Shown piece by piece: positions 20,419 through 27,362 of a stretch of DNA of 64,000 nt. The number at the start of each line of letters is the position of its first letter. Position 1 is the first letter of the stretch. The position numbers were made by a program, and so were the translations under genes. Below the pieces are notes generated by a model. It did no database searches. It worked only from the letters and a program-made list of their open reading frames with translations, and had not been told where the DNA came from. The stretch is from Coprothermobacter proteolyticus DSM 5265 (GTDB taxonomy: Bacteria > Coprothermobacterota > Coprothermobacteria > Coprothermobacterales > Coprothermobacteraceae), in the NCBI RefSeq assembly GCF_000020945.1, contig NC_011295.1, positions 496,001 through 560,000 of the forward strand. Direction: 5' to 3'.

Positions 20419-21633
20419 ATGGCTTTTTTGAATCTTTTTGACCAACGCAAGCTTTGGGAACTCGCAGAAAAGATTCCATTAGAACCTTTATCCGAGCGAA
20501 AGTCAATTTATGATGCATTGGGCTTGGTTTGCGCTGAGGACGTATTGGCACCTGAGGACATACCTCCAAAGGCTCGTTCTGAAGTAGATGGATACGCAGT
20601 ACGGAGCCGTGATGTCAAAGGGGCTTCTGTGGAAAGGCCATCACTTCTTACGCGTGTGGGTAGCATTGTCGTAGACGAAGTTCCACAGTTTGAGCTTAAC
20701 CCAGGTGAGTGTGCTTATATTCCTACTGGTGCTATTTTGCCTAAAGGCGCAGATGCTGTTGTAATGATTGAATATGTTGAAGAAAGTGGCAATTATGTGG
20801 AGGTTTTTAAGCCTGCTGCACCCTTGGAAAACGTGGTTTCGCCTGGCGAAGACATGAAACAAGGTGATATTGTACTAAAACGTGGTCAGCGCATTACTCC
20901 ACAGGTAGTTGGATTGCTAAGTTATTTAGGAAAGTTGGAGGTTCAGGTGTACAGGCCTTTAAAGGTATTTGTGGCTGCTACTGGTAACGAAATTGTGGAA
21001 CCTACTCAAGTACCTAACTTGGGACAGTACCGTGATGCTAACAGCTTAACTGTGTGGTCCATGCTCAAGGAAAGAGGATTTTATGCGCATAGGGGCTCCA
21101 TTATTCGCGATGAACTCGAAAACATACATGAAGTCATAAATAAAGCTACTCAAAATTACGATGTCATTGTTTTGACTGGTGGTAGCAGTGCAGGCATTAG
21201 GGATTTGGTAGTACGTGCGGTGGAAGAAGCTGGTGGTACGGTACTTGCGCACGGGTTCACCATAAAACCTGGAAAACCTACGGTTATTGGCATTGTCAAG
21301 GAAAAACTGTTTGTTGGGCTACCAGGCCACCCCATGTCCTGCTTTGTTTCCGCATCACTAATCGTAATGCCTCTGCTCAGAAGGTTACAAGGTGAGAACG
21401 TAAAGCCAATGCCACTGCTTAAAGCTCGTTTGCGAACCGCTGTATTCTCCAGAATCGGTGTGGAAGAATGGATTCCGGTCAGGCTCAGCTATGAAGAAGA
21501 GCTGTGGGCAGAGCCTGTATTCTCCAAGTCTGGTATGGTAAGCAGCATGGTGCGAAATGAAGGCTTCTTGAGGATACCTCCCGAGTGTGAAGGAATGGAG
21601 CCCGGTGAGGTTGTGGAGGTGCTGTTGTTGTGA
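20419..21633 (+). CDS. moeA: Molybdopterin molybdenumtransferase MoeA
   Basis: A 404-residue MoeA, which inserts molybdate or tungstate into adenylated molybdopterin. Motifs include SEVDGYAVRSRD (usually SAMDGYA), PTGAILPKGADAVVMIEYVE, GEDMKQGD, VFVAATGNEI, LTGGSSAGIRD and KPGKPTVIG...GLPGHPMSC. All four MoeA domains are present. It is first in the molybdenum-cofactor operon and its stop overlaps the next moeA start (GTGA). Confidence 0.93.
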   Translation: MAFLNLFDQRKLWELAEKIPLEPLSERKSIYDALGLVCAEDVLAPEDIPPKARSEVDGYAVRSRDVKGASVERPSLLTRVGSIVVDEVPQFELNPGECAYIPTGAILPKGADAVVMIEYVEESGNYVEVFKPAAPLENVVSPGEDMKQGDIVLKRGQRITPQVVGLLSYLGKLEVQVYRPLKVFVAATGNEIVEPTQVPNLGQYRDANSLTVWSMLKERGFYAHRGSIIRDELENIHEVINKATQNYDVIVLTGGSSAGIRDLVVRAVEEAGGTVLAHGFTIKPGKPTVIGIVKEKLFVGLPGHPMSCFVSASLIVMPLLRRLQGENVKPMPLLKARLRTAVFSRIGVEEWIPVRLSYEEELWAEPVFSKSGMVSSMVRNEGFLRIPPECEGMEPGEVVEVLLL

Positions 21634-23474
21634 GAAAGATCTATTACGAAGTGCGAGAACTGGGGGAAGCAAAAGCGATTCTGCGTAACATGTGTCCTCC
21701 TTTAAAAGTTGAGACAATACCTGTTCGACAAGCATTAGGCAGAGTAACGGCTGAAGAAATACTGGCGAACCGAAGTGTTCCACATTACATAGCGGCTGCC
21801 TACGATGGTTACGCCGTTGATGCTTTAGTTACATATGGCGCTTCTGAAGGACATCCTTTGGAGCTCACTAATTACAGGGTTGTGAGCACGGGAGACGCTT
21901 TGGAATTTCGCGAAACCTGCGTAATTCCGCTGGAGGACGTTGTTGATTCTGGTGGTAAGAAGCTCATCTTCAAAGCATTTGCCGAAGGGACTAACGTGAG
22001 ACAAGTTGGTGAAGACATCATAAAAGGCGACTTAGTGGTTCCTGCGAGGCACTGGCTGGAACCCATGGATATTGCGCTTTTATTGGCTGCGGGTGTTTAT
22101 GAGGTCCCTGTTCTCAAGAAGCCCTTAGTTCTTCTCATACCCACCGGAGACGAAGTGCGATCCCCTGAGGAAGTCCTTAAGGAAGGAGAAATACCAGAAA
22201 CCAATTCAGTGTTCATAGTAAATGAGTTAAAGGATTATTTCGATTTCATTGTGCTGCCACCTGTACCCAACAATGTGGACGCACTAAGGTCTGTCATTGA
22301 CTCTTATTACAATGATGTGGACATCATTGCAACCATTGCAGGGTCATCTTACGGAGAAAGGGACGTGACAGCAAACCTACTGATGGGGCAAGGTTCGGAC
22401 CCCGATTTACAGCAGCAACTTTACGTACATGGTATAAACATAAAACCAGGCAAGCCCACAATTTTGGCCAGTTATCGTGAAAAACCATTTATTGGATTCC
22501 CAGGTTTCCCTGTTTCTACTTGGGTAGTGGCTAAATTTGTGCTCGATAGCTTAGTCGAAAGCTACTATGGCTTATTGCCTCAGTGTTGGCAGCAAGGCAA
22601 AGCGCTAAGCGGTAGAAAAATACCCTCTGAGGGAGGAAGTATTGAATTTGTTAGAGGTGTTGTGGGCGCTGCTTCATCGCAAAAGGGATTGGTCTTCATG
22701 CCACTTAACCGTGGAGCTGGCGCTATGTCCAGCGTTGTTAGGGCTAACGCCGTATTAACCATCCCAGCAAATTCTGAAGGTTTCACTGAAGGAAGTGAAC
22801 TTGAACTCCTCATGCGTTATGTGGGTTGGCCACTGCTGGTCGCCTCTGATGATATTGCCCTGAAGTTTCTGCTTAGTGATCTACGCAAGATGGGCGTTTT
22901 CCTAAACTATGTCTTTACTGGTTCTTCCACGGCCTTGGAGCTTCTTAGAAAAAATCTGGCAGCAGCAGCAGGAGCACATTTGCTTTGTCCTGATGGTTCG
23001 TACAACACCTGCATGGCTCCAGCTAATGCCATCAAAGTACCCTTCGTAAAACGTGAGCAAGGGTTCATGGTTCAGAGAGGTAATCCAAAGGGAATTAAGT
23101 CCGTGGAAGACTTAGAACGGTCGGATGTGGTTTTTGTGAACCGCGACAGGGGTTCGGGCACACGCATCTTACTGGATTACTTACTCCAACAAAAGGGCTT
23201 AGAACCGGATCACATTAAAGGCTATGATCATGAAGAGTTTTCGCATTTGCGGGTGGGTATGTGCGTGGCAAGTGGGTTAGCTGATGTGGGGCTCGGCATT
23301 AAGTTTGCTGCTGACGTTTTGGGACTGGATTTCGTCCCCGTGGCTGAAGAGGAGTATGACTTGTTCTTTCTTTCCGAGTACTCCAATCTAGCAGACACGA
23401 TTAGTGACTTCATCAAGAGTAAACAGTTCCGCGCTCGTCTTTCCAACATGGGCGGCTACCGTTTAGTTGAATGA
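21630..23474 (+). CDS. MoeA fused to a periplasmic-binding-protein-like domain
   Basis: A 614-residue protein. Residues 1 to about 395 form a second MoeA (AAYDGYAV, EGTNVRQVGEDIIKGD, LIPTGDEV, AGSSYGERDV, KPGKPTI, GFPGFPVS). Residues 405-614 form a PBP-like domain with LLCPDGSYNT, VFVNRDRGSGTRILLDYLL and DVGLGIKFAAD, as in the known MoeA/PBP or MoeA/LysR-substrate-domain fusions. The second domain may sense or bind molybdate, tungstate or a cofactor precursor. Two MoeA proteins in one organism can divide metal insertion between Mo and W, but nothing here says which does what. The GTG start overlaps the upstream stop. Confidence 0.9.
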   Translation: MRKIYYEVRELGEAKAILRNMCPPLKVETIPVRQALGRVTAEEILANRSVPHYIAAAYDGYAVDALVTYGASEGHPLELTNYRVVSTGDALEFRETCVIPLEDVVDSGGKKLIFKAFAEGTNVRQVGEDIIKGDLVVPARHWLEPMDIALLLAAGVYEVPVLKKPLVLLIPTGDEVRSPEEVLKEGEIPETNSVFIVNELKDYFDFIVLPPVPNNVDALRSVIDSYYNDVDIIATIAGSSYGERDVTANLLMGQGSDPDLQQQLYVHGINIKPGKPTILASYREKPFIGFPGFPVSTWVVAKFVLDSLVESYYGLLPQCWQQGKALSGRKIPSEGGSIEFVRGVVGAASSQKGLVFMPLNRGAGAMSSVVRANAVLTIPANSEGFTEGSELELLMRYVGWPLLVASDDIALKFLLSDLRKMGVFLNYVFTGSSTALELLRKNLAAAAGAHLLCPDGSYNTCMAPANAIKVPFVKREQGFMVQRGNPKGIKSVEDLERSDVVFVNRDRGSGTRILLDYLLQQKGLEPDHIKGYDHEEFSHLRVGMCVASGLADVGLGIKFAADVLGLDFVPVAEEEYDLFFLSEYSNLADTISDFIKSKQFRARLSNMGGYRLVE

Positions 23475-23570: not shown

Positions 23571-24509
23571 GTGAAAGACAGCTTTGGCAGGGAAATAAAC
23601 TATCTTCGAATCTCTGTAACTGACCGCTGCAATTTCGACTGTTTGTATTGCAGCCATCCAGTAGAAATGCTGCCCAGAGAAAGAGTACTTCGTTTTGAAG
23701 ACATCGTCGTTTTGGTACAGGCAGCCAAGGAGCTTGGCATAAAGAAGGTCAGATTGACTGGCGGTGAGCCACTGCTGCGCAGAGACATTGATAAACTAGT
23801 TGCCATGCTTCACGAGTTGGATGTAACAGTGCACACAACAACCAACGGTTTCATGCTAGCGCGTTTAGCCGAGCCTCTAAAAGAAGCAGGTTTAGATGGG
23901 TTAAATGTGAGCTTGGATTTTGTTGATGCTGAGAAATTCCGTCAAATCACTGGTGGTGGTGATTTAGCAACAGTTGTGCAGGGAATTGATAAAGCACTCG
24001 AGGTTGGTCTGCCTGTAAAATTGAACGCTGTTTTTACTACCATGCACGAAACCAAGGATCTAAAAGAACTGTTGAATTTTGGTAAAGAACGCAATCTGCC
24101 TATACGTTTTATTGAGCTCATGCCGAAGAATCTCGGTTCATTTTCTTCTCTTTTTAGGCCAATTGGTGATGCTCAAAGTATGATTGAGAGTTTTACCCAG
24201 CTAAGGCCCGTAGGTACTAATGCGGTCAGTGGTGGTCCAGCTGAGTATTATCTGACCGATGACGGTGTAGAAGTTGGCTTTATTGGATTTTTCAGCCTGA
24301 ACCAATGTAAACAGTGCAACCGCATTCGCGTTACCAGTAGCGGCGCCATTTATCCTTGCCTATTACGGAATGTTAAAGTTGAAGCTTTCGAAAGCATTAA
24401 GCAGGGCAAAGAAGCCACCAAAGAGGCTTTACTTAAAGCTGTTTCTATTAAGCCTGTGGCAGGCAATCCTGAGGAAGTTGGGCCTGACATGTCTGAGATT
24501 GGTGGTTAA
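23571..24509 (+). CDS. moaA: GTP 3',8-cyclase MoaA
   Basis: A 312-residue radical SAM enzyme for the first step of molybdenum cofactor synthesis. The N-terminal cluster motif is CNFDCLYC and the second 4Fe-4S site uses CKQC...YPCL near residues 246-264. The C-terminal GG dipeptide needed for activity is present (SEIGG). RLTGGEPLLRRD is the SAM-binding region. The GTG start follows AAGG after a 96-bp AT-rich gap in which I see no riboswitch. Confidence 0.95.
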   Translation: MKDSFGREINYLRISVTDRCNFDCLYCSHPVEMLPRERVLRFEDIVVLVQAAKELGIKKVRLTGGEPLLRRDIDKLVAMLHELDVTVHTTTNGFMLARLAEPLKEAGLDGLNVSLDFVDAEKFRQITGGGDLATVVQGIDKALEVGLPVKLNAVFTTMHETKDLKELLNFGKERNLPIRFIELMPKNLGSFSSLFRPIGDAQSMIESFTQLRPVGTNAVSGGPAEYYLTDDGVEVGFIGFFSLNQCKQCNRIRVTSSGAIYPCLLRNVKVEAFESIKQGKEATKEALLKAVSIKPVAGNPEEVGPDMSEIGG

Positions 24510-24556: not shown

Positions 24557-25822
24557 ATGGAAACGGATATGCTAGATGCCTATGAACGCATTAGCGAGGA
24601 ACTAAACCAAGCTCCATGGTTTGGCCGCACGCCAGACCTTACACGCATGGATGCTCTGCTGGATGAACTGGGTTTACCCCAAGCTAACACAAAGAACATC
24701 ATCGTAACAGGTACTGACGGCAAGGGTAGTGTGTGCAGCTACCTGCATTCCATTTTGGGCAGGCGCTACAAAGTGGGACGGTTCATATCGCCGCATTTGG
24801 AAGAGTGGACTGAACGTATAACCGTGGGAAAAGATGACATTTCCAAAGAGGATTTTGCACGGCTCTATGTTAAGGTCATGGAAGGAGCCAAAAAAGCTTG
24901 TCGTGTCAGTGGTGAGATGCCTACTGTTTTTGAGCGCTTGCTTGCCATGGCACTGCTTTACTTTGAAGAGCAGGGCACTGAGTGGAACGTCATAGAAGTA
25001 GGCATTGAAGGGCACTACGATTCCACAAACTTGCTACCTGCCAAAGCCGTGGTAGTCACTTCAGTAGGTATGGACCATATGAGATTACTCGGCAACACCA
25101 TTGAAGAGATTGCAGACGCTATTTCTGCCGCATTTCGTCCCCATGCAGTTGCTGTAATAGGTAAAACTGACCCTGCGGCCATGAACATACTGGAAGTGAA
25201 CGCAAGAAGGAAAAAAGCTACTGTTTACCGGTACGGTAGAGACTTTTGGTACGATGGGAAGTTTCTCAGTTATTCAGGTAGCTTGGACTTTCAACTTGCT
25301 CTTAGGGGCGTTCACCAGTGGTACAACGCTTCAGCTGCCATACAAACAGTGCTGGCGCTGTCAAGTACTGAGCTTAACAACATCGACGCTTCAGATATTC
25401 AAGAAGGGCTTCGAGAAGCCTTTTGGCCAGGCAGGATGGAGACTGTAAGGGAGAATCCTCTAATTATCTTGGATGGTGCACACAATCCTCATGCTGCACA
25501 GTCGCTGAGAACTTCTTTAGACTTGCTGTATCCCGGTAAGAAATGGAACATCTTTTTCGCTGCCATGAAAGATAAGGATTGGAGATCAGTACTAACACAG
25601 TTTCTGGATTTGGCTAACCATGTTTACGTAGTTAGAATGCCCTATGAGAGGGCGGAAAGTCCTGAAACCATCGTGGAGTTCTTGAAAGAAAAAGGTACAT
25701 CGTCTTCAGTGTGCGAAGAGCAGGATGTAATCAAATGCGATGAAGACGCTTTGGTCTTCGGTTCCCTGTATTTGGTGGGTGATGTGAGGAGGTTAACGAG
25801 AAATGCGGTTCACTCATTTTGA
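24557..25822 (+). CDS. folC: Folylpolyglutamate synthase/dihydrofolate synthase family ligase
   Basis: A Mur-ligase-type protein of 421 residues with P-loop TGTDGKGSV, the SPHLEEWTERI motif, EVGIEGHYDSTN, and the C-domain motif LDGAHNPHA. FolC adds glutamate to dihydropteroate or folates. The position inside a molybdenum-cofactor operon is unusual, and the 20-bp overlap with the next gene shows co-translation. Both pathways use pterins derived from GTP. The ATG at 24557 has GAGG only 3 bases upstream, so an ATG at 24569 is an alternative. Confidence 0.85.
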   Translation: METDMLDAYERISEELNQAPWFGRTPDLTRMDALLDELGLPQANTKNIIVTGTDGKGSVCSYLHSILGRRYKVGRFISPHLEEWTERITVGKDDISKEDFARLYVKVMEGAKKACRVSGEMPTVFERLLAMALLYFEEQGTEWNVIEVGIEGHYDSTNLLPAKAVVVTSVGMDHMRLLGNTIEEIADAISAAFRPHAVAVIGKTDPAAMNILEVNARRKKATVYRYGRDFWYDGKFLSYSGSLDFQLALRGVHQWYNASAAIQTVLALSSTELNNIDASDIQEGLREAFWPGRMETVRENPLIILDGAHNPHAAQSLRTSLDLLYPGKKWNIFFAAMKDKDWRSVLTQFLDLANHVYVVRMPYERAESPETIVEFLKEKGTSSSVCEEQDVIKCDEDALVFGSLYLVGDVRRLTRNAVHSF

Positions 25823-26321
25823 AAATGGTCAAGCCATCATGGTTAACATTGGTGAGAAGTCATTATCTCACCGTGTAACAAAGGCTGTCTTATTTGGTAC
25901 TCGTTTTAGTGTACCTTTGGCAAGGAAAGCCATGACTCTTACGCATGAATTCATACCCATGGCACATCCGTTACCTATTGCACCACTTAATTCCTCGTTT
26001 AAACGCAAAGCACAGGTAATTGAAGTGCAGGTTAGCTGCGATTACAAAACAGGATTGGAACTTGAAGCCATCATGGCAGCTGCAGGTTTTATGAAGGAAA
26101 TACCCTATCTTGGTTTTGCTGCTATTACGCACAAAGAAGGCGGGAAGTCCGGTACCTTAGAAAGGCGAGCACAGATTTATAGAGAAGGCTTTTCTTTCCA
26201 GAAGGGAATATGGTACCGCGTGGTGGGCAAGGGGTGGCTAAAAGCCACAGAACATGGTCTCGAGAAAGTGCCAGACTTTCAGCTGGAGGCAGGGGATGTG
26301 ATACTATGCAGCTTACAGTAA
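25803..26321 (+). CDS. MoaC-like protein A: keeps His/Glu half of the active site
   Basis: A 172-residue protein aligned with E. coli MoaC from its first strand (FTHFENGQAIMVNIGEK). H55 in MAHPLP equals His77, K82 equals Lys108, E86 and E88 in TGLELEA equal Glu112 and Glu114, R24 equals Arg26, and GGKSG (113-117) is kept. The loop with catalytic Lys51 is deleted, and YDMCK (Asp128, Lys131) is replaced by PYLGF. About 55 extra residues follow GGKSG. Alone it should not make cyclic pyranopterin phosphate. It overlaps folC by 20 bp and the next gene by 16 bp. Confidence 0.82.
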   Translation: MRFTHFENGQAIMVNIGEKSLSHRVTKAVLFGTRFSVPLARKAMTLTHEFIPMAHPLPIAPLNSSFKRKAQVIEVQVSCDYKTGLELEAIMAAAGFMKEIPYLGFAAITHKEGGKSGTLERRAQIYREGFSFQKGIWYRVVGKGWLKATEHGLEKVPDFQLEAGDVILCSLQ

Positions 26322-26875
26322 CTGCTCAAGGGACTGTAGCCTTTCGTCCTGATAAATTTGACTTAGTGAGCAGCGAGAAGCTCCCTAAGGGGCCTTTCTT
26401 GGAGACGGCGCGTTTGGCTGCGTTCCTAGCTGCAAAACGTGATAGTTTTTTTGGTAGCCGAGTATTCATAACTCACATGGAAATTAAGCATCACTGGGGG
26501 CCTTCTGAACTTAGTTTTACTGTGAGGCTAGTTGCCGATGGGGATGATGAAAAGGAGATTATGCGTAGGGCTTGGTTCTCCGCATTCGTTTGTTGTTTGA
26601 CTACTTACGACATGGTAAAGGCCGTAGACCCTGATGCTGTCATTGAAGATGTCGGTATTGTGTCAATAAATGATGAGGATCTTCCTGAAGTGGATTTGAG
26701 TCACGCAGACCTCAGTGATTTCCAAGACGGCTACTACTGTGGTTTTTCTCCTACTTTGATTGTGGAAAGAGGACAGATCCGATCTGCCTTTAATGCGCCG
26801 TGGAGTAATAGCAATGTACGACTCCGGTGGCTTACGGCAGGTAAGAAATTCAAAGGAGGTTTCTCGGGTGAGTAA
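26306..26875 (+). CDS. MoaC-like protein B: keeps Lys/Asp half of the active site
   Basis: A 189-residue protein starting at ATG 26306 after GGAGGCAGGGG; the longer open frame is only an overlap with gene A. It lacks the first MoaC strand but keeps K28-G29 (Lys51-Gly52), ARLAAFLAAKR (ARIAGIQAAKR) and YDMVKAVD, where D102 and K105 equal Asp128 and Lys131. The CHPL and TGVEMEA motifs are lost (the latter is KEIMRRA). A 70-residue tail of unknown role follows. With protein A it supplies the full MoaC residue set, so a heteromer is likely. Confidence 0.8.
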   Translation: MQLTVTAQGTVAFRPDKFDLVSSEKLPKGPFLETARLAAFLAAKRDSFFGSRVFITHMEIKHHWGPSELSFTVRLVADGDDEKEIMRRAWFSAFVCCLTTYDMVKAVDPDAVIEDVGIVSINDEDLPEVDLSHADLSDFQDGYYCGFSPTLIVERGQIRSAFNAPWSNSNVRLRWLTAGKKFKGGFSGE

Positions 26876-27362
26876 ATTGACTCCCGTAATTACGTGCTCC
26901 ATTCTTATCTGTTCAGACAGGTGCTTTCGCGGTGAAAGGGAAGATAAAACAGGTCCCGTATTAAAAGAAACACTGGAACGCTTAGGATATCATGTGCATG
27001 ATGTGAAGGTTGTCCCAGATGAACTGGACGTCATCGTTGATCAGTTGAAGGAATGGGTACGTCTGGGCATGGATCTCATAATAACTTCTGGTGGCACAGG
27101 TGTTGGGCCAAGGGACGTTACCCCTGAAGCCACCATAAAGGTCATTGAGCGAGAAATACCAGGTATGTCATTTGCAGCTTTGATGTTGTCACTTCAGAAA
27201 ACACCACATGCTGTGTTATCCAGAGCCAAAGCAGGTGTGGCAGGTACCACCTTAATAATAAACCTACCTGGTTCCACAAAAGGTGCTCAAGAGATTATCG
27301 AATACTTGGATCCCGCTCTAAAACATGCCGTCCCAATCATACATGGGGAAGTCATCGAGTAA
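26868..27362 (+). CDS. mog: MoaB/Mog-family molybdopterin adenylyltransferase
   Basis: A 164-residue MoCF-domain protein. Motifs are CSDRCFRGEREDKTGP near the N-terminus, the substrate loop TSGGTGVGPRDVTPEAT and NLPGSTKGAQE. The family adenylates molybdopterin before metal insertion by MoeA. The GTG at 26868 follows AGGAGG; the in-frame start at 26760 lies inside the upstream gene. It closes the operon and overlaps the convergent kinase gene by 11 bp. MoaD and MoaE are not encoded in the window. Confidence 0.92.
   Translation: MSKLTPVITCSILICSDRCFRGEREDKTGPVLKETLERLGYHVHDVKVVPDELDVIVDQLKEWVRLGMDLIITSGGTGVGPRDVTPEATIKVIEREIPGMSFAALMLSLQKTPHAVLSRAKAGVAGTTLIINLPGSTKGAQEIIEYLDPALKHAVPIIHGEVIE

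Follow-up and report, generated by a model that had tools for sequence, protein, structure and literature searches.

Two adjacent genes of Coprothermobacter proteolyticus DSM 5265, here called A and B, likely arose by duplication of a MoaC gene and complementary degeneration of the two copies, their products functioning as an obligate heteromer. This reading rests on the homology of both proteins to MoaC, the modelled fold of B, a partition of active-site residues seen in six genomes, the co-occurrence and overlap of the two genes, purifying selection on both, the lack of any ordinary moaC and the occurrence of downstream enzymes that require cPMP, while the association of A and B, their stoichiometry and their activity are inferred. 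MoaC is a widely conserved enzyme of molybdenum/tungsten cofactor (Moco) synthesis, and the ordinary enzyme, cyclic pyranopterin monophosphate (cPMP) synthase (PF01967; TIGR00581), is a homohexamer arranged as a trimer of dimers. To our knowledge, MoaC has never been described as anything but a homo-oligomer, and enzymes that became heteromeric after duplication of a homomer are known in principle.

The genome consists of a single contig of 1,424,912 bases, of which the window (i.e., the whole stretch of 64,000 nucleotides that was analysed) forms a part. All genes concerned lie on the + strand, in the order moeA (20419–21633; Pfam MoeA_N, MoCF_biosynth and MoeA_C), a second moeA carrying a fused PBP-like domain (21630–23474; Pfam MoeA_N and PBP_like), moaA (23571–24509), folC (24557–25822; TIGR01499, 322.9 bits), A (25803–26321, encoding 172 aa), B (26306–26875, encoding 189 aa from an ATG at 26306) and a mog/moaB-type gene (26868–27362; Pfam MoCF_biosynth, 115.7 bits). 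The moaA product, GTP 3′,8-cyclase, supplies the substrate of MoaC. Here it scored 283.7 bits against TIGR02666 (cut-off 284.05), matched Pfam Radical_SAM and Mob_synth_C, and ended C-terminally in GG. Since folC overlaps A by 20 bases, A overlaps B by 16 (26306–26321) and B overlaps the mog/moaB-type gene by 8, coupled translation of A and B is very likely. As a side observation, the PBP-like (periplasmic-binding-protein-like) domain is carried by the moeA that adjoins the plain moeA, and this two-moeA arrangement is also present in relatives.

Both A (34.4 bits) and B (55 bits) passed the curated cut-off of 27 bits of the Pfam MoaC family (PF01967). Across the homologous pairs, these scores ranged from 26.6 to 60.4 bits, with the strongly diverged B proteins of the sister family at the cut-off (26.6–27 bits) and one B just below it. 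Aligned with hhalign against 93 ordinary MoaCs, the A rows of the window's family matched with E=4e-25 over 126 columns and the B rows with E=8e-18. When the models for ordinary-MoaC equivalogs (TIGR00581 / PRK09364) were considered, both proteins remained below the 141.5-bit cut-off of the NCBIfam model TIGR00581 (35.7 bits for A and 50.4 bits for B). The AlphaFold model of B had a pTM of 0.74, with the blocks of its MoaC part mostly at pLDDT 72–92, and a Foldseek search with this model returned solely MoaC structures at E≤0.001 (e.g., 4fdf, E=2.7e-11), with target-normalised TM-scores of up to 0.81. The model thus predicts a MoaC ferredoxin-like fold for B. The single-chain model of A, with an alignment of six rows only, was poor (pLDDT 46). 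In a tree, A formed a single well-supported group spanning both families, consistent with its having arisen once, in the ancestor of the order; B sat on very long branches of uninformative placement, and its history is unresolved. Past the MoaC part, both proteins carry C-terminal tails (residues about 125–172 of A and about 125–189 of B) for which no Pfam match was found. The A tail (WYRVVGKGW...GDVILCSL) is well conserved within the window's family, and the tails of the sister family are longer and different.

A and B from six genomes were aligned with ordinary MoaCs, and positions (E. coli numbering) were called conserved when shared by ≥95% of 93 ordinary sequences. Thirty-six positions met this threshold. 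Twelve of them (i.e., H6, M15, V16, K21, R26, H77, T109, G110, E112, E114, K147 and G150) were found in 6/6 A and 0/6 B, and five (i.e., K51, G52, D128, M129 and K131) in 0/6 A and 6/6 B. None of the 36 was fully retained in both proteins, K67 coming closest (5/6 A, 6/6 B). I63, C76 and M113 were gone from A and B alike, with C76 and M113 replaced in A by A/T and L/V, respectively. Each of R26, K51, H77, E112, E114, D128, K131 and K147 occurred exactly once per A-B pair; R26, K51, H77, E112, E114, D128 and K131 were never all present in one chain, and all six genomes divide them between the two proteins.

For the window itself, A retains R24, H55 (codon 25965–25967), E86 and E88 (codons of Glu86-Leu87-Glu88, 26058–26066), K111 and GGKSG (113–117), equivalent to R26, H77, E112 and E114 (of E112-M113-E114), K147 and GGKSG of E. 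coli MoaC, and has no equivalents of K51, D128 and K131. Conversely, B retains K28 (codon 26387–26389), D102 and K105 (codons of Asp102 to Lys105, 26609–26620), equivalent to K51, D128 and K131, without equivalents of R26, H77, E112, E114 and K147. This confirms, for the window and for the five homologous pairs, what an initial annotation made from sequence alone had claimed: that A keeps His77, Glu112, Glu114, Arg26 and GGKSG and lacks Lys51, Asp128 and Lys131, and that B keeps those three and lacks the glutamates of the TGVEMEA motif. Its coordinates, reading frames and 16-bp overlap also held. Its use of a retained Lys108 in A as active-site evidence was dropped, as K108 varies among ordinary MoaCs and is not diagnostic, and the ARIA motif it attributed to B is in fact ARLA. 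As for the N-terminal strand it considered missing from B, approximately residues 1–25 of the E. coli protein have no counterpart, but the strand that follows is still present (residues 2–12 of the B model).

The partition was identical in the two families, with the sister-family proteins only 23–30% identical to those of the window. Moreover, it was reached differently. The A proteins of the window's family have lost the K51 loop and the latter half of the last helix by deletion, whereas in A of the sister family this helix has no deletion and D128 and K131 are substituted by A and D; likewise, the H77 loop of B is deleted in one family and substituted in the other. Because the same split thus recurs at 23–30% identity via different mutations, a chance origin is disfavoured.

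Published structural work indicates where these residues meet. When Mycobacterium MoaC2 was superposed on a GTP-bound Thermus structure, Lys62, Asp137 and Lys140 of one chain contacted GTP, the contact from the other chain at the same site was His88, and helix alpha3 was located at the dimer interface (PMC3602415). By alignment, we take these residues to be K51, D128, K131 and H77 of the E. coli enzyme. Since this chain assignment matches the split between the two proteins, B has the set of the first chain and A that of the second. Furthermore, E112/E114 and D128/K131 are at opposite ends of one helix (residues 82–107 in the B model), 14–19 residues or about 21–28 Å apart, so that they can line one pocket only if they come from the two chains of a dimer. 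That R26, E112, E114 and K147 belong with the H77 half of the site is inferred, without coordinates. PDB titles list E. coli MoaC mutants at K51 (4pya, K51A) and D128 (1eks, D128A).

Adjacent A-B pairs were found in five further genomes, i.e., two of the same genus (G001 and G002), one of the same family (G004) and two of a sister family (G005 and G006), bringing the total to six genomes in two families of one order. Wherever either gene was found, so was the other (6/6 genomes). A and B are the only MoaC homologues of the window's genome, no ordinary moaC being present elsewhere in it, and an ordinary moaC was absent from all six pair-bearing genomes, with the caveat of an extra MoaC-like fragment in G006. 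The 16-bp overlap was exact in 4/4 genomes of the window's family (the others being G001, G002 and G004). In both families the pair lies in a Moco gene cluster of shared gene order, beside moaA (or moaA-folC), and a mog-type gene comes next. In G006, moaA and the pair are on separate contigs. Neither gene was found in G003, an incomplete genome (68%). The initial annotation had named co-occurrence in relatives and absence of a normal moaC as checks on an A-B heteromer rebuilding one site per pair. Both were passed in the pair-bearing genomes (the contig-end fragment of G006 aside), and the published geometry (PMC3602415) supports the rebuilt site, with association and catalysis still inferred. 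What it had listed as refuting (a normal moaC elsewhere with A and B absent from Moco-making relatives, or retained residues that do not meet) was not encountered.

Two minor observations concern these neighbourhoods. In the window's family folC separates moaA from A, but it is missing from that position in the sister family (L018). The G006 fragment is a third, partial MoaC-like stretch at one end of contig C244 (bases 22–303; L020), beside moaA; it could be the other end of an A gene that the assembly broke in two, or a duplicate of such an end.

Outside the order, three overlapping surveys (60, 389 and 388 genomes, the latter two sharing most of their genomes), which together comprise about 480 distinct further bacterial genomes, revealed no pairs of weak MoaC matches; a few of the surveyed genomes had two matches, but the best of these was strong. 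When the alignment of A was run against GTDB contigs, at least 80 loci were obtained, apparently ordinary MoaCs; as such MoaCs saturated the scan, it does not exclude rare pairs elsewhere. Weaker-than-usual matches were noted in two genomes of a different bacterial group (G436, with two matches, the best at 1.5e-37; and G444, with one at 1.4e-24), which may reflect broken or fragmentary genes. Separately, the one sub-cut-off match that was inspected, in G266, lies beside carboxylase and biotin-carrier genes and was rejected as looking like chance.

Both A and B are under purifying selection (dN/dS 0.02–0.14). Between G000 and G002, dN/dS was 0.02 for A and 0.14 for B (vs. 0.26 for the neighbouring mog and 0.14 for folC), and between G005 and G006 it was 0.12 for A and 0.09 for B. 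MoaE, a subunit of MPT synthase, is encoded in 7/7 genomes of the order, and genes of the aldehyde:ferredoxin-oxidoreductase (AOR) type number three or four in 6/7 genomes and one in the incomplete G003. AOR-type enzymes are tungstopterin enzymes. Given the presence of MoaE and AOR genes, these organisms very likely need cPMP, and A and B together are its only visible source, their activity being inferred.

The ordinary MoaC homodimer has two symmetric sites. To each of them, one chain contributes K51, D128 and K131 and the other contributes H77, with R26, E112, E114 and K147 inferred to come from the H77-side chain as well. An A-B dimer would then possess one complete site, with the K51/D128/K131 set from B (K28 and K105 standing in for K51 and K131) and the H77/E112/E114/R26/K147 set from A, and a second, dead site with neither set. 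Judging from the hexamer of ordinary MoaC, the assembly would probably be (AB)3, and it would convert the MoaA product 3′,8-cH2GTP to cPMP for tungsto/molybdopterin enzymes. Nevertheless, the rebuilt site is not an exact copy: C76 and M113, each present in ≥95% of ordinary MoaCs, are absent from both proteins, and because of this loss and the C-terminal tails, neither site nor complex is a simple copy of the ordinary enzyme. A bolder reading, which we regard as doubtful, is that the tails and the asymmetry of an obligate A-B MoaC serve a role that a symmetric MoaC could not fill, e.g., docking of MoaA on one face for direct handover of its product.

Three alternative explanations were weighed. 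The first assigns catalysis to just one of the two proteins and makes the other a pseudoenzyme with a regulatory or scaffolding role. Pairs of an enzyme and a dead activator paralogue are known in trypanosomatids (PMC3663545), and B has both the better Pfam score and the residues usually regarded as catalytic (K51, K131 and D128). However, the site is incomplete in both chains, and all six A homologues keep H77, E112, E114, R26 and K147, residues that a mere scaffold could do without, making this explanation very improbable. The second, for which we see equally little room, is that A and B have been repurposed, with cPMP coming from an unrelated enzyme or from uptake. In its favour, both proteins fall below the NCBIfam MoaC equivalog cut-off and both miss two otherwise conserved residues; against it, both families retain the pair in the Moco cluster, next to a mog-type gene and moaA (or moaA-folC), and the residues conserved are precisely the catalytic ones. 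The third, decay of an unneeded moaC into relics, could account for the strong divergence and the deletions relative to ordinary MoaC but is virtually ruled out by the open frames, the exact 16-bp overlap in four genomes, the dN/dS values (0.02–0.14), the same residue split in two families and the several cofactor-requiring AOR genes.

The heteromeric MoaC favoured here would be a lineage-specific and apparently undescribed variant of a known enzyme family, not a new type of system. With ordinary MoaC it shares the sequence family, the fold (of B), the location in a Moco cluster and, when the two chains are pooled, the full main active-site set; it differs in having two paralogous genes instead of one, half a site per chain, no C76 and M113, extra C-terminal tails and scores below the equivalog cut-offs. 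Within the literature searched, which leaves out many subscription papers, no description of a heteromeric MoaC was found, consistent with the initial annotation, nor any paper treating both Coprothermobacter and MoaC. The nearest functional parallel found was the deoxyhypusine synthase heterotetramer of trypanosomatids (DHSc + DHSp; PMC3663545). Like it, A and B are two co-occurring paralogues, each with an incomplete site (in six genomes), their association being inferred. The family is unrelated, however, and of the deoxyhypusine synthase partners one is described as catalytically dead and the other as impaired (PMC3663545), whereas the losses of A and B are evenly complementary. In a bacterial heteromeric metformin hydrolase, too, two paralogues encoded in one operon form a heteromeric version of a family enzyme, but it is of an unrelated family and with different chemistry (PMC11399263).

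Confined, as found, to one order of heat-loving bacteria, a two-gene MoaC would be a natural half-site experiment on which chain gives which residue. It would likewise test whether one site per dimer suffices, and show how complementary loss turns a homomer into an obligate heteromer. Pipelines that demand an equivalog-level moaC would wrongly score the synthesis of the molybdenum or tungsten cofactor as incomplete in this order.

Finally, G008, the phylum outgroup, encodes two ordinary MoaCs, of which one is fused to a MOSC domain (L021, 5249–6169; L022, 2668–4109). On the other contig of this genome, a MOSC-MoaB fusion adjoins the second MoaC.
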